A stretch of 43,801 bases of DNA from an uncultured Bacilli bacterium (GTDB taxonomy: Bacteria > Bacillota_I > Bacilli_A > RFN20 > CAG-449): positions 1-43,801 of the forward strand of contig CALVJO010000012.1 of NCBI GenBank assembly GCA_944332225.1, in the 5' to 3' direction. The notes under the pieces are model-generated. The model did no database searches, was not told the origin of the DNA, and was given only the letters and a program-made list of their open reading frames with translations. Both the position numbers and the translations under genes were made by a program. Numbering within the stretch: position 1 is the first letter of the stretch; each line of letters begins with the position of its first letter. Positions 23,115 through 28,789 of this stretch are shown piece after piece.

Positions 23115-24557
23115 ATGAAGAAAAAATTATTATCTAGCCTTCTTGCTTGTGGAGCTATATTAACCTTAGTTGCCTGCGGAGGACCTTCAAGAGCTAACCC
23201 TCCTGTTACAACATCAACACCTGAAAGTCAAAACACTTTTTCTAGTGATATTACTAGCGATCAACAAGCTATTTTAGCTAACATTACTTCTGGAGATTTC
23301 GTTAAAAACGGATCATTCCAAGCCTCAAATGGTTTACAACAAAGATTTGATGTATCCGTATCTGGAACATTAAATGTTATTGTTTACTATGGATCTCAAG
23401 CTAATAGCTTTGGAAATACTTGTGAGATGTATGTTGGTGTTTCAGTAACAGACTTTACTATTGTTGGAGTTGAATTAACAGGTTCATATACTAATGATCA
23501 TTCAGCAAGTGTTTCTGAATCTGATGTAACTTCATTTGAAGAAGCATTTGTAGGAACTGATGGTAACATTGATGGTAATTTATCAGGTGCATCTCAAGGT
23601 TCTGGAATAACCTATAAGACCTTAGCTCAAGCAGCAGTTGCCCAAGCTAAATTAGATGCAGGTGGATCATCAAGCAATAATACCTTCAGCGATGATATTA
23701 CTGCTGAAGAACAAGAATATTTAGCTGCAATTACATCAGGTAACTTTACTAAGGATACTGATTTTACTGCAACAAACGGATTACAAACAAAATATGATGT
23801 TACAGTAGATGGTACTTTAAGTGTTATTGTTTACTATGGATCTCAGGCTAATAGCTTTGGAAATACTTGTGAGATGTATGTTGGTGTTTCAGTAACAGAC
23901 TTTACTATTGTTGGAGTTGAATTAGCAGGTTCATATACTAATGATCATGCAGCAAGTGTTTCTGAATCTGATGTAACTTCATTTGAAGACGCGTTTGTTG
24001 GAACGGATGGTAACGTTGAAGCTACTTTATCAGGGGCTACAAAGGGATCAACACCTACTTATAAAACTCTTGCCCAAGCAGCTGTAGGTCAAGCTAAGTT
24101 AGACGCAGATAGTTCAACAAGCGGTAACACCTTCAGCGATGATATAACTGCTGAAGAACAAGAATATTTAGCTGCAATTACATCAGGTAACTTTACTAAG
24201 GATACCGATTTTACTGCAACAAACGGATTACAAACAAAATATGATGTTACAGTAGATGGTACTTTAAGTGTTATTGTCTACTACGCTTCACAAGCTAATA
24301 GTTACAAACATCCATGTGAAATGTATGTAGGTGTTTCAGTAACCGATTTTACTATAGTTGGAGTTCAATTAGCTGGAACTTATACAAATGATACTAGAGT
24401 AGAAATTTCTGAATCAGATGTAACTTCGTTTGAAGAAGCGTTTGTTGGAACGGATGGAAACATTGAAGCTACTATATCAGGGGCTACAAAGGGATCAACA
24501 CCTACTTATAAAACTTTAGCTCAGGCAGCTGTAGGTCAAGCCAAGTTAGACGCATAA
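23115..24557 (+). CDS. Lipoprotein with three tandem FMN-bind-like repeats
   Basis: 480 residues. A lipoprotein signal peptide with lipobox LVAC (Cys about 21) is followed by a short Pro/Ser/Thr linker and three tandem repeats starting at N40, N189 and N338 (period 149). Each has VSVTDFTIVGV-(E/Q)-L, a FEEAFVGTDGN segment and then SGAS (repeat 1) or SGAT (repeats 2 and 3), followed by YKTLAQAAV-x-QAKLDA. This resembles FMN-bind domains (NqrC/RnfG/PplA type), whose SGAT Thr carries covalent FMN added by ApbE. Parts of the repeats are almost identical in DNA, so duplication is recent. A role as a surface flavin electron carrier is inference. Confidence 0.8.
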   Translation: MKKKLLSSLLACGAILTLVACGGPSRANPPVTTSTPESQNTFSSDITSDQQAILANITSGDFVKNGSFQASNGLQQRFDVSVSGTLNVIVYYGSQANSFGNTCEMYVGVSVTDFTIVGVELTGSYTNDHSASVSESDVTSFEEAFVGTDGNIDGNLSGASQGSGITYKTLAQAAVAQAKLDAGGSSSNNTFSDDITAEEQEYLAAITSGNFTKDTDFTATNGLQTKYDVTVDGTLSVIVYYGSQANSFGNTCEMYVGVSVTDFTIVGVELAGSYTNDHAASVSESDVTSFEDAFVGTDGNVEATLSGATKGSTPTYKTLAQAAVGQAKLDADSSTSGNTFSDDITAEEQEYLAAITSGNFTKDTDFTATNGLQTKYDVTVDGTLSVIVYYASQANSYKHPCEMYVGVSVTDFTIVGVQLAGTYTNDTRVEISESDVTSFEEAFVGTDGNIEATISGATKGSTPTYKTLAQAAVGQAKLDA

Positions 24558-24595: not shown

Positions 24596-24618
24596 AAGCC
24601 GTCAATGACGGCTTTTTG
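24596..24618 (+). terminator. Rho-independent terminator after the lipoprotein gene
   Basis: AGCCGTC (24597-24603) pairs with GACGGCT (24607-24613) over a 3-nt loop and is followed by TTTTT. It isolates the next, phase-variable promoter from read-through. Confidence 0.92.
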
Positions 24619-24647: not shown

Positions 24648-24685
24648 TTGACAAAATACGGGGGGGGGGGTATATTGAATATACC
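24648..24685 (+). promoter_or_regulatory. Poly-G promoter, candidate phase-variable switch, with palindromic operator
   Basis: A perfect -35 TTGACA (24648-24653) and -10 TATATT (24671-24676) are separated by exactly 17 bp, of which the last 11 (24660-24670) are all G. Slippage in the tract would change the spacer from the optimal 17 and switch expression. The -10 lies inside a perfect 17-bp palindrome, GGTATATT-G-AATATACC (24669-24685), that ends right at the ATG. The predicted start (about 24683) gives an almost leaderless mRNA with no ribosome binding site. Confidence 0.85.
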
Positions 24686-25285
24686 ATGGTTAAATCAAAA
24701 GTATTTACCCTTTGTAATTTATTAATGTACGTTTCCTTGTTGGGAATTGGTTTTTCATCTTTTGTTATCTCATCTAATGATAATAATAATTTAAGTTTTT
24801 ATGCATCTTTTGGTGATGTTAATGACATATTATTATCTCAAAGATTTAATAATGAAATAACCATAACACCATATGGATTTTATAATGATGAGACATTTAA
24901 TTTATCGGCTACTTTAAATTGTGAAGTTAATTTAGATATTGATAAAGCAAGAGAGGAAATAACTTCATTTAATAATGCATTATCGTTAAATGTCTTATTA
25001 TCAGAAAAGGATAATCTAGTTACAAATTTTATAGATCCTAATAAAATAACTGTTTCTTTTGATAAAGCAGTTACGTCAAATATATCTAATTCGCTTGATA
25101 ACAACAGTTTTATTTCAACGATAGATATATCTAATATTGATGATAACGATTCAACATTATTAATAAATATTAATTACTTAATAGATACATCGACTTCTAT
25201 TACTACAAATTTTAATACTGATATTTATCCTTCATTACAAAATGGATTAAATTTTGTATTTCAAACGGAGATAATATATGGCTAG
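24686..25285 (+). CDS. Exported surface protein, first gene of poly-G-controlled locus
   Basis: 199 residues. An N-terminal hydrophobic helix (about 8-28, LCNLLMYVSLLGIGFSSFVIS) is a signal peptide or anchor without a lipobox. The rest is Asn/Ser/Thr/Asp-rich, mostly beta-strand in character (LSATLNCEVNLDI, LLININYLI, LNFVFQTEIIYG). The GFSSFVISS turn recalls the GFGAFLINS sequence of the next gene and the N-termini of TasA/CalY-like secreted fibre proteins, but I do not recognise the family. It overlaps the next gene by 8 bp. Translation probably starts on a leaderless mRNA from the poly-G promoter. Confidence 0.75.
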   Translation: MVKSKVFTLCNLLMYVSLLGIGFSSFVISSNDNNNLSFYASFGDVNDILLSQRFNNEITITPYGFYNDETFNLSATLNCEVNLDIDKAREEITSFNNALSLNVLLSEKDNLVTNFIDPNKITVSFDKAVTSNISNSLDNNSFISTIDISNIDDNDSTLLININYLIDTSTSITTNFNTDIYPSLQNGLNFVFQTEIIYG

Positions 25286-28148
25286 GCTTCAAACTAAGAT
25301 TTTATTAGTTTTATCATTAACTGGTTTAGCTACCACGATTGGCTTTGGAGCCTTTTTAATTAATAGTAAAACGATAGAAGCTTCTTATGGAGTTAATGAA
25401 AATTTAAAGCCAGTTGCTTATATAGAAGGTAGTAACGTTCAATACTCTTCAATTGAAAAAGCTCTTGAAGTGGCTAATACTTTAGCTCAATCAGGAACAA
25501 TTCAAAATGTTTATGTTATTCCAGGAACTAATCCAACTATATCTAGACAATGTATAGTTGGAAGTAATGTAAATCTTATTTTACCTTATGAAGGGACTAC
25601 TTATTATAATGAGGAAACAGGTAAAGAATCGGAGTATAATGGGTCTAATTTTGCAGATAATAATCCAGATACTTTTAGAAAAAATTCTGTAAAAGTCAGC
25701 CATTTAACAAATGAAAATGGAAGCACAATTCCTACTATTATAGTAAATTCAGGTGGAACGATATCTATAGGAGGATATCGAGGATATAACATTCAAGGTG
25801 GAACTTCAGGCAGATATTGTGAATTAGTTTTAGATGATAACGCATTGATACAATGTGATGGTAAGATTGATTGTCGTGGTTATATTAAAGAGACAAGAGA
25901 CAACAATGGATCAATGATAGAAGTAAGTAATACTGGGACTATATCTCAACCTGTAATTGTTTATGATTGGGGATCATCAAAATACGCAGACGCCAACATT
26001 GAAAAGAATGTATTTCCTTTTAATTTATTTGATTTAATTCAGGTCAACCCTATCATTCGCTTATATTCTGGGTCAAGATTAGAAGGATTGTTTTGGATAT
26101 ATGGAACAACCGTAAAGGATAATCCTATTCAAGCCTATGTTATTGGAGGAGAAGACGATACTGCTTTAATTAAATCTAAAAACTCTGATGGCACTTATTA
26201 TATTGATTGGAAGTCTTATGACTCTAATAGCGGGACAAGTTCGACTAAGACTTATAATAATCATCATATAAATATAAATGTATATGGCGATTGGAGTTTT
26301 GAAAGTTTAGAAATATCAATAAAAAGTATGGTAACTATCAACAGCGCGGACTATGAGATGCCTTTATCAGGGCCTTTTAATATTACTTTGAAACAATTTT
26401 CTACTTTTGACATTAATAATAAAATAAAATTTTTGCCTGGATCAAAAGTTACTATTGAAAGAGGAGCCACGGCAAACGTAAATGCTAATGTGTCTATTTA
26501 TGCTTCTAATATAGATAAATATGGAAATAAAATTATTAATTATCCAACGAATACACCTTCAGAATTTATTAATAACGGAATCTTAAATATCAACAGCGGA
26601 TTTGGGGGTAATATTGTTGCTGGAACTGAAGGAGATACTTCTTCAGTCATAAACACTAGTCCAAATTTAATAGGTACTAATACTAAAGATACGATTGCAA
26701 GATTAACAGGAGACAATCTTGCCCCTTCAAATTCTATTGTATCTGTTTTTTCTTATAATCCTACGAGTAACATATTAGTCAATCAAGATGATTTAGATTA
26801 TGTTGAAAATGCTGAATTAGAACCAAGTAAAACATATTCTTATACAAAAGACAATAATGAAGCATATTGGTCAATTGATGGTTATTTAATCAATTTTATT
26901 AAAGAGGACTCTGATTTATCAAAAATTGATTCTAATTCTACTTATAATATTGAGGTAACTAGAAGTGATGGAACTATAGAAACATTTTCGAATCCAACAT
27001 CAATAAGAATGTATGATGGTGATACTTTCAAATTTACTGATAGCTCTACTTCAATTGATAAGATTATAATTGAAGACCAAGAAATTACAGATTTCTTAGA
27101 TCAAGAATATTTAATTGATCATAGCTTTGATGTGACTATCTTTCCAACTCAAATAGAATCTTCGAAAATTCAATCAATGTATATAGAATATTCAACTGAT
27201 AATGGAGAAACATGGTCTAATGCAGACACTCTTGATTCAAATGGAGACATTTTAATTTTTAGAGCGGTAATTACTACAGTAGATGGAAATACAAGTTTCT
27301 CTCCATTAACCACGTATCAATGGGAAAGTGACAATGTAGTTGTTGGAAATGATAAAGAATATGCTGGTACATTTAAAAGTGAGAAGAGTACAACAATTAA
27401 ACTTACCCTTGTTGATGGATTAGACTCTAATAATATTTTTGAAGATAGTTTTACAATTAAAGTTACAAAACCAACCTGCATTCTCTATGATACGATGATT
27501 ACTATGGGTGATGGTTCGACTAAACCAGTTCAAGATATTAAATTACATGAAAATATCATCGCGTATGACTTCGTATCTGGAACATATATTCCTAGAGAAG
27601 TTGTCTATTTTAAAGAAGTTGAATGTGAAAACGCATATATCATAACAATATATTTTGATGATGGAACTAAATTAGAAACATCAGGAGGTCAAGGCTTCTT
27701 TGATGTTGATAAATTAGAGTATTTCGTAATCGAAAAATACGATGAATCGTTCTTGTCTAGAAAAGTGTTAGGTTTCAATAATAATGATAAATCTATTAAA
27801 ACCATCGTAAATATAGAAACTGAATGCAGAAGGGCTAAAGTTTATGAAATTGTAACCGCGTATAATTATAATTTTGTCGCGAATAATATTTTGACGGTTG
27901 AACCTTTAATTGGTAAGACTAATATTTTCAAGATAAATGAAAATTTAATGTGTGATCAGCAAGAGATGATGAAAGATATCATGAAATATGGTTTATATGG
28001 ATTAGATGATGTTAAGGATTTCTGTTCTAAACAACAATTTGTAATGTATAATGTTGCCTATTTAAAAGTCGCGGTTGGAAAGAGTTTATTAACTTTAGAT
28101 GATATTAGAAATATCGTAGATACTTATAGACAATATTCTATTGATTAG
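25278..28148 (+). CDS. Large exported protein with beta-rich repeats and degenerate C-terminal Hint domain
   Basis: 956 residues. It has an N-terminal signal/anchor (about 6-29, LLVLSLTGLATTIGFGAFLI), then an Asn/Ser/Gly-rich beta-rich ectodomain (about 45-480) with beta-helix-like stretches (GGTISIGGYRGYNIQGG), then Ig/PKD-like segments (about 640-732). From C734 a Hint (intein/hedgehog-like) fold is apparent: CILYDTMITMGDGSTKPVQD, IITIYFDDGTKLETSGGQGFF and YNFVANNILTVEP. The N-terminal Cys is present, but the TxxH histidine appears as Gln and the terminal His-Asn as Glu-Pro, so self-splicing looks impaired. A helical tail of about 80 residues follows. GGAG precedes the ATG inside the previous gene. 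Confidence 0.78.
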   Translation: MARLQTKILLVLSLTGLATTIGFGAFLINSKTIEASYGVNENLKPVAYIEGSNVQYSSIEKALEVANTLAQSGTIQNVYVIPGTNPTISRQCIVGSNVNLILPYEGTTYYNEETGKESEYNGSNFADNNPDTFRKNSVKVSHLTNENGSTIPTIIVNSGGTISIGGYRGYNIQGGTSGRYCELVLDDNALIQCDGKIDCRGYIKETRDNNGSMIEVSNTGTISQPVIVYDWGSSKYADANIEKNVFPFNLFDLIQVNPIIRLYSGSRLEGLFWIYGTTVKDNPIQAYVIGGEDDTALIKSKNSDGTYYIDWKSYDSNSGTSSTKTYNNHHININVYGDWSFESLEISIKSMVTINSADYEMPLSGPFNITLKQFSTFDINNKIKFLPGSKVTIERGATANVNANVSIYASNIDKYGNKIINYPTNTPSEFINNGILNINSGFGGNIVAGTEGDTSSVINTSPNLIGTNTKDTIARLTGDNLAPSNSIVSVFSYNPTSNILVNQDDLDYVENAELEPSKTYSYTKDNNEAYWSIDGYLINFIKEDSDLSKIDSNSTYNIEVTRSDGTIETFSNPTSIRMYDGDTFKFTDSSTSIDKIIIEDQEITDFLDQEYLIDHSFDVTIFPTQIESSKIQSMYIEYSTDNGETWSNADTLDSNGDILIFRAVITTVDGNTSFSPLTTYQWESDNVVVGNDKEYAGTFKSEKSTTIKLTLVDGLDSNNIFEDSFTIKVTKPTCILYDTMITMGDGSTKPVQDIKLHENIIAYDFVSGTYIPREVVYFKEVECENAYIITIYFDDGTKLETSGGQGFFDVDKLEYFVIEKYDESFLSRKVLGFNNNDKSIKTIVNIETECRRAKVYEIVTAYNYNFVANNILTVEPLIGKTNIFKINENLMCDQQEMMKDIMKYGLYGLDDVKDFCSKQQFVMYNVAYLKVAVGKSLLTLDDIRNIVDTYRQYSID

Positions 28149-28151
28149 ATT

Positions 28152-28175
28152 GGCTATATTTACGATATAGTTTTT
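28152..28175 (+). terminator. Terminator after the Hint-domain gene
   Basis: CTATAT (28154-28159) pairs with ATATAG (28165-28170) over a 5-nt loop, followed by TTTTT. It starts 4 nt after the stop. The stem is AT-rich and weak. Confidence 0.6.
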
Positions 28176-28206
28176 GTTTTTGAAATATTTGATTTATGAT
28201 ATAGGC

Positions 28207-28647
28207 ATGAATAAAAAACCTTCATCTTTTGTAATTTTATCAAGAAGTTTCTTAATAATCGGGATTGTTAGTTTAATTCTCACGATTATTAATTCTTTTA
28301 CATTGTTGACTCTTGATGAAATTCGTTATCATATAGCCTTTATTCCCCTATCCCAGCTTTTGATTGCTTTACTTTGTTTATTGATGTTTTTGTTTTTAGC
28401 CTTGGATGATATTTTTTCTTTAAGGAATTTAAAGGTTAATATTTATGTTTCGATCGCTTTAGTTATTTTTTGCTTAATCAATTTAATTTTTAAGATAGTT
28501 TTGATTGAACCTACTAATGATTTTTATTTTATGTTTATATCTTTAGGAACTATTTCCTTCTGCGGAGGAATTAGTCTTTTGATCACATTTATTGTTGAAT
28601 CATATAACAATAAAATTAATGAAAAGAATAATTCAAATAGTAAATAA
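28207..28647 (+). CDS. Small four-helix membrane protein, unknown function
   Basis: 146 residues from the ATG at 28207; a TTG at 28174 would begin inside the preceding terminator and was rejected. Four hydrophobic helices are visible (about 7-30, 39-65, 71-96 and 106-132), with a Lys/Asn-rich cytoplasmic tail. No strong ribosome binding site is seen (only ATAGG). No family recognised. It lies between the phase-variable surface locus and the polysaccharide cluster and may belong to either or neither. Confidence 0.65.
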   Translation: MNKKPSSFVILSRSFLIIGIVSLILTIINSFTLLTLDEIRYHIAFIPLSQLLIALLCLLMFLFLALDDIFSLRNLKVNIYVSIALVIFCLINLIFKIVLIEPTNDFYFMFISLGTISFCGGISLLITFIVESYNNKINEKNNSNSK

Positions 28648-28677
28648 TTGATAAAAGAGTAATAATTATAATATAAA
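28648..28677 (+). promoter_or_regulatory. Possible promoter of the polysaccharide cluster
   Basis: TTGATA (28648-28653) and TATAAA (28672-28677) with an 18-bp spacer lie about 110 nt before the sugar transferase start. The region is AT-rich, so this is tentative. The rest of the 28648-28789 gap shows no gene. Confidence 0.4.
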
Positions 28678-28789
28678 ATGCAATAATAAAAACATTTTGC
28701 AATATAGATATATCCATTAAAGCGATTTCAAAAATCTTTCAAGGTTAAATCTATATAGAGTGTATGTTAAAATTAAAAACGGAACTCTT

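Follow-up and report, generated by a model that had tools for sequence, protein, structure and literature searches.

A poly-G promoter spacer ahead of a two-gene exported module in an uncultured Bacilli bacterium, one member of a recurrent promoter class and a probable site of phase variation

Does a run of eleven guanines between the two boxes of a promoter control the genes behind it through its length? The question is raised by a locus in the window analysed here, a stretch of 43,801 nucleotides from an uncultured Bacilli bacterium, in which a promoter with a poly-G spacer precedes two genes for exported proteins. In our view phase variation by spacer-length slippage in this tract, similar to that of porA, is the best explanation and a probable one. 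The proposed mechanism is of a known kind, and the locus exemplifies a promoter class that is widespread.

Architecture of the locus

The 17 bp between the two promoter boxes (24654-24670) consist of AAATAC followed by the G11 tract, which makes up 11 of the 17 spacer bases (Table 1). A sequence-only reading had described the boxes as perfect and 17 bp apart; this holds for the distance and for the -35 box, a full consensus match, and fails for the -10 box, which matches TATAAT at five of six positions. The poly-G promoter is nevertheless the top sigma-70-type match (11/12) in a promoter scan of 22.9-28.8 kb. Its tract is unique in the window, as had been stated, the second-longest G/C run being 6; a first-order Markov model of the window leads to an expectation of 0.0002 runs as long as G11. 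The terminator that had been placed upstream is also present. Its hairpin ends about 30 nt 5' of the -35 box and the folded stretch has a free energy of -16.2 kcal/mol (z -5.4).

The two genes overlap by 8 nt and both encode hydrophobic leaders, in agreement with their earlier description as overlapping genes for exported proteins; together with the class-wide export bias described below, these leaders mark the products as exported or surface proteins. ORF1 matched no family model in family searches, nor did it match the models for TasA/CalY and SipW-cognate signals, so that the resemblance of its leader to SipW-type leaders is one of motif only. A single-sequence structure prediction of ORF1 (pLDDT 33) was unusable. 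The capsule cluster that had been noted nearby corresponds to a polysaccharide cluster with a sugar transferase, glycosyltransferases and a Wzy-like gene, which begins at 28760. Between ORF2 and this cluster (28148-28760) a convincing terminator was not found, and read-through from the poly-G promoter into the polysaccharide genes is therefore possible. Just upstream of the locus (23115-24557) lies a gene for a putative lipoprotein with about three tandem repeats of about 150 aa, whose self-matches show 70-86% identity.

Table 1. Features of the poly-G promoter locus, in positions of the window
Feature	Position	Strand	Basis or description
Intrinsic terminator, upstream of promoter	24596..24617 (approx.)	+	8-bp stem AAGCCGTC/GACGGCTT, 3-nt loop, then T's
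-35 box TTGACA	24648..24653	+	sequence check, promoter scan
G11 tract, proposed slippage site	24660..24670	+	sequence, Markov expectation, recurrence of class
-10 box TATATT	24671..24676	+	sequence check, promoter scan
ORF1, 199 aa, exported, SipW-type-like leader (GFSSF)	24686..25285	+	hydrophobic leader; aligned with small partners of relatives
ORF2, 956 aa, large exported protein	25278..28148	+	hydrophobic leader; homologues in 11/40 relatives
Hint-fold domain, near ORF2 C-terminus	27477..27905	+	profile match; first Cys codon 27477-27479

Briefly, the promoter would be of sigma-A type, and slipped-strand mispairing at its G11 tract would determine how far apart the -35 and -10 boxes lie. 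Each G added or dropped when the DNA is replicated would alter the spacer, 17 bp as assembled, and the altered spacer would turn transcription of the two-gene exported module up or down. Tract length would thus influence transcription and vary within the population, and the 17-bp form might be the active state. The sequence-only reading had gone further and equated 17 bp with ON, which was not supported, as the most common spacing in the class is 18-19 bp.

One feature of ORF1 counts against the reading as a switch promoter. Its ATG lies 9 nt past the -10 box, and transcription from near 24683 would give a leader of about 3 nt and hence an unusual, nearly leaderless mRNA. The predicted transcript contains no Shine-Dalgarno sequence ahead of ORF1, most neighbouring genes carry one, and what was scored as one for ORF1 is the G run, which is located before the predicted transcript begins.

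A promoter class ahead of exported proteins

The source genome (1.33 Mb in 48 contigs) contains five tracts of at least nine Gs, and four of these lie between TTGAC(A/G) and a TATA-like box. Besides the promoter of this locus (contig C12; TTGACA-AAATAC-G11-TATATT, spacer 17), these are TTGACA-GCATAC-G10-TAAAAT on C22 (spacer 16), TTGACA-TAAC-G10-TATACT on C44 (spacer 14) and TTGACG-AC-G9-T-TATAGT on C13 (spacer 12). The locus is hence one of four such promoters in its genome and not the single, isolated switch that had been proposed. Promoter activity usually requires a spacer of 16-18 bp, and because their spacers of 14 and 12 bp fall outside this rule, the C44 and C13 promoters would be off in the assembled state. 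The fifth tract (L075:1521-1529; G000:C5:25020-25028) is a G9 that lies in frame early in the gene for a LytTR response regulator; the two alternative frames run into stops after 24 and 8 aa, so that this tract could switch a regulator at the level of translation.

The poly-G spacer design is also found in related and in other uncultured gut Bacilli and Clostridia. With the pattern TTGAC-N(1-12)-G8-N(0-3)-TAWA we found more than 50 poly-G promoters in 19 of 58 genomes (the source genome and its order), and a scan of the phylum gave about 63 in 29 of 392 genomes. The reversed pattern matched nowhere in either set of 58 or 392 genomes, and poly-C in the same spacer position occurred 0 and 1 times in the two scans. 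More than 110 sites thus carry G on the non-template strand, as opposed to a single poly-C site. Such promoters are absent from two sister species of the genus. A scan of named species with the pattern TTGACA-N(3-9)-G9-TATA, which is a sample and no census, yielded at least 119 stretches, largely from uncultured gut Clostridia and Bacilli and, among the matches listed, scattered Saccharibacteria, Streptococcus, Streptobacillus and others. Viral contigs with the pattern numbered only five; two of them from different metagenomes (L196, L198) share an identical poly-G spacer promoter with G10 in both.

In a small-genome relative (G241; L203-L205), TTGAC is joined directly to G15, G15 and G13 tracts followed by TATATT, ahead of genes for exported proteins. 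Three genomes of two families (G005:C1:106243, G009:C21:17227, G024:C22:17350) contain a near-identical stretch in which G11, G12 and G11 follow ...AAAGCATTTTTGAT; the stretch is probably a mobile gene whose tract is unstable. A recurring element ...CCTTGC(C/T)..CTC.. precedes G13, G18 and G10 tracts in L219 (G002:C27), G043:C2:34-139 and G046:C8:6079-6184, and TAATATTAT follows the tract in two of these three genomes.

Genes behind poly-G promoters appear to encode mostly exported proteins. Strongly hydrophobic N-termini, a heuristic used in place of a signal-peptide predictor and applied to first genes with a Shine-Dalgarno sequence, are predicted for 75 of 90 first genes (83%) as compared to 152 of 478 other genes of the same loci (32%; p=4e-20); within the order alone, the respective counts are 15 of 21 and 13 of 40 (p=0.006). 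Many of the first genes are lipoprotein-like or have SipW-type-like leaders.

It is tempting to extend these observations to a clade-spanning phasome, a proposal to which we give slightly better than even chances. Uncultured gut Bacilli and Clostridia would use TTGACA-N(4-10)-poly(G)-TATAAT promoters, whose Gs invariably lie on the non-template strand, as a standard design to make several unrelated exported proteins of a genome phase-variable, among them SipW-linked and Hint-bearing surface modules, and the strand polarity would stem from a mechanistic need such as a G kept at -14. A G at -14 is the key base of an extended -10 element. A G run keeps this base in place at any length, unlike a C run, which we suggest as a possible reason for the G-only polarity. 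Leading-strand GC skew, considered as another cause of the polarity, was rejected; it should give poly-C at lagging-strand promoters, which the single such site does not bear out.

Tract length and competing explanations

Some copies of poly-G promoters with closely matching flanks differ in tract length. Within genome G359, two copies identical over 59 flanking bp (0 mismatches) have G9 and G10. Among five Streptococcus genomes (L220-L224), the poly-G promoter of a surface-protein gene, presumably PspA-like as judged from its leader, has G9 in four and G10 in one, and the flanks of the G10 copy match those of a G9 copy from another genome with 0 mismatches over 250 bases. G8 and G9 are found at tandem lipoprotein genes in G029:C1 and at the orthologous module promoters of G052 (G8) and G041 (G9). 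These differences come from members of the class other than the present locus, and in runs of 9-11 Gs a difference of a single base can stem from sequencing error. The sequence-only reading had suggested comparing tract length in relatives, and the outcome is divided, with these G9/G10 and G8/G9 differences on one side and, on the other, equal G numbers in all but one of the 12 pairs whose flanks are at least 72% identical, an equality that is partly a product of selection by the search pattern, as the named-genome scan demanded at least nine Gs. Given this agreement in 11 of the 12 pairs, tract length does not vary wildly from species to species.

Total spacing in the class ranges from 9 to 22 bp around its mode, and the number of Gs is partially compensated by the remaining spacer (r=-0.40, p=0.0004). 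Such compensation and wide spread are as expected of selected but mutable spacers and are no proof of switching. The earlier proposal of a probable phase-variable promoter gains support from the recurrence of the design with empty controls, from the export bias, from the length differences between copies with identical flanks, and from a relative in which the homologous small gene carries the poly-G within its coding sequence.

An alternative hypothesis, which we regard as unlikely, is that the poly-G spacer is a fixed structural or regulatory element, such as stiff A-like DNA, a supply of G at -14 or a regulator site, that marks co-regulated promoters of surface proteins and whose length is no switch. 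The strict polarity fits this hypothesis, as slippage alone requires none, and so do the equal lengths in most related pairs and the mutual compensation of tract length and remaining spacer. However, a fixed element should not differ in length between copies with identical flanks or tolerate the observed range of total spacing, and it would be senseless within genes, yet in-frame poly-G is also found in the coding sequences of the response regulator and of the small gene homologous to ORF1.

We consider it very improbable that the tract acts in the transcript, as part of a 5' leader or as a distant Shine-Dalgarno sequence, with the promoter further upstream. This would account for the lack of a Shine-Dalgarno sequence downstream of the -10 box of ORF1, but the space between the terminator and the -35 box holds no better promoter, the G run, at 15 nt from the ATG, is too distant for a Shine-Dalgarno sequence, and most relatives have their own Shine-Dalgarno sequence downstream of the run. 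It is hardly credible that the G runs are artefacts of sequencing or assembly, such as spurious runs produced by two-colour chemistry: most sites do come from metagenome assemblies, and some are near contig ends, but an artefact would have no reason to fall between promoter boxes yet leave the reversed and poly-C patterns empty, and the design is also present in named-strain records of Streptococcus and Streptobacillus.

The exported module and known systems

Phase variation, if it operates as we propose, would act at this locus on a recurrent module, composed of a small exported protein with a SipW-type-like leader and a large protein that ends in a Hint-fold domain. Upstream of ORF2 homologues there is often a gene for a small exported partner, with leaders of the kind GFSSW, GFSAW or GFSTW. 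Modules behind poly-G promoters are located on C12 and C13 of the source genome and on G029:C8, G041:C4, G052:C3, G056:C3 and G034:C12, and copies without such a promoter on G038:C2, G010:C40, G014:C31, G021:C7 and G029:C2. On G021:C4 (L068:1364-1372), the ORF1 homologue has an in-frame G9 in its coding region rather than in the promoter, and the alternative frames stop after 1 and 6 aa.

SipW/TasA-type modules of Bacilli resemble this arrangement in their small exported proteins with a similar leader motif. A gene for a SipW-like signal peptidase follows the second pair, on C13 of the same genome, and such peptidases are also encoded within the G041 and G034 operons. Their position beside these modules suggests that ORF1 is a SipW-processed exported protein. 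Unlike in SipW/TasA-type modules, however, ORF1 fits no family model, and the operon in the window lacks an adjacent gene for a SipW-like signal peptidase.

The Hint domain of ORF2 matches the profile of the solved chains 6y75/6tmm (E 1.3e-10) and, more weakly, those of hedgehog proteins and inteins. It shares with the Hint superfamily (inteins, hedgehog and bacterial intein-like domains) a profile match of about 145 residues with an invariant first Cys. Self-splicing or autoprocessing Hint domains combine this Cys with a block-B His and a terminal His-Asn, whereas the block-B His is lost in ORF2 (Gln instead) and in L061, and the terminal His-Asn is missing in the aligned ORF2 homologues. Because both are absent from ORF2, splicing by its domain is unlikely and other autoprocessing doubtful.

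Homopolymer promoter switches that we found described are mostly from Gram-negative pathogens and mycoplasmas. In our search, mostly of non-subscription literature and thus weak evidence of novelty, we came across no description of promoters with poly-G spacers from gut Bacilli or Clostridia. If these promoters switch, many uncultured gut bacteria would express some of their surface proteins heterogeneously within a strain, with relevance to phage resistance, to the targeting of antibodies and to expression studies at strain level. That the non-template strand almost always carries G and hardly ever C further raises the question of how RNA polymerase tolerates variable spacers.

Known systems with other repeat units include vlp of Mycoplasma, in which transcription of surface proteins changes with the length of a poly-A tract in the promoter region. 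TA repeats in the promoter region have the same effect for Haemophilus hifA/hifB (PMC3899988), as does, according to a title cited in PMC5084427, a poly-C promoter repeat for the surface protein Opc of Neisseria; poly-C is nearly absent from the class described here. The closest likeness is to porA of Neisseria meningitidis, for which the transcript level was reported to follow the number of Gs in the -10/-35 spacer, a one-base change altering transcription of a surface protein (PMC3899988). As in porA, a homopolymer of Gs lies between the -35 and -10 boxes of the present locus. In contrast to porA, the predicted poly-G promoters described here belong to a Gram-positive-type lineage, have a consensus TTGACA, number at least four in one genome and extend over many genera.
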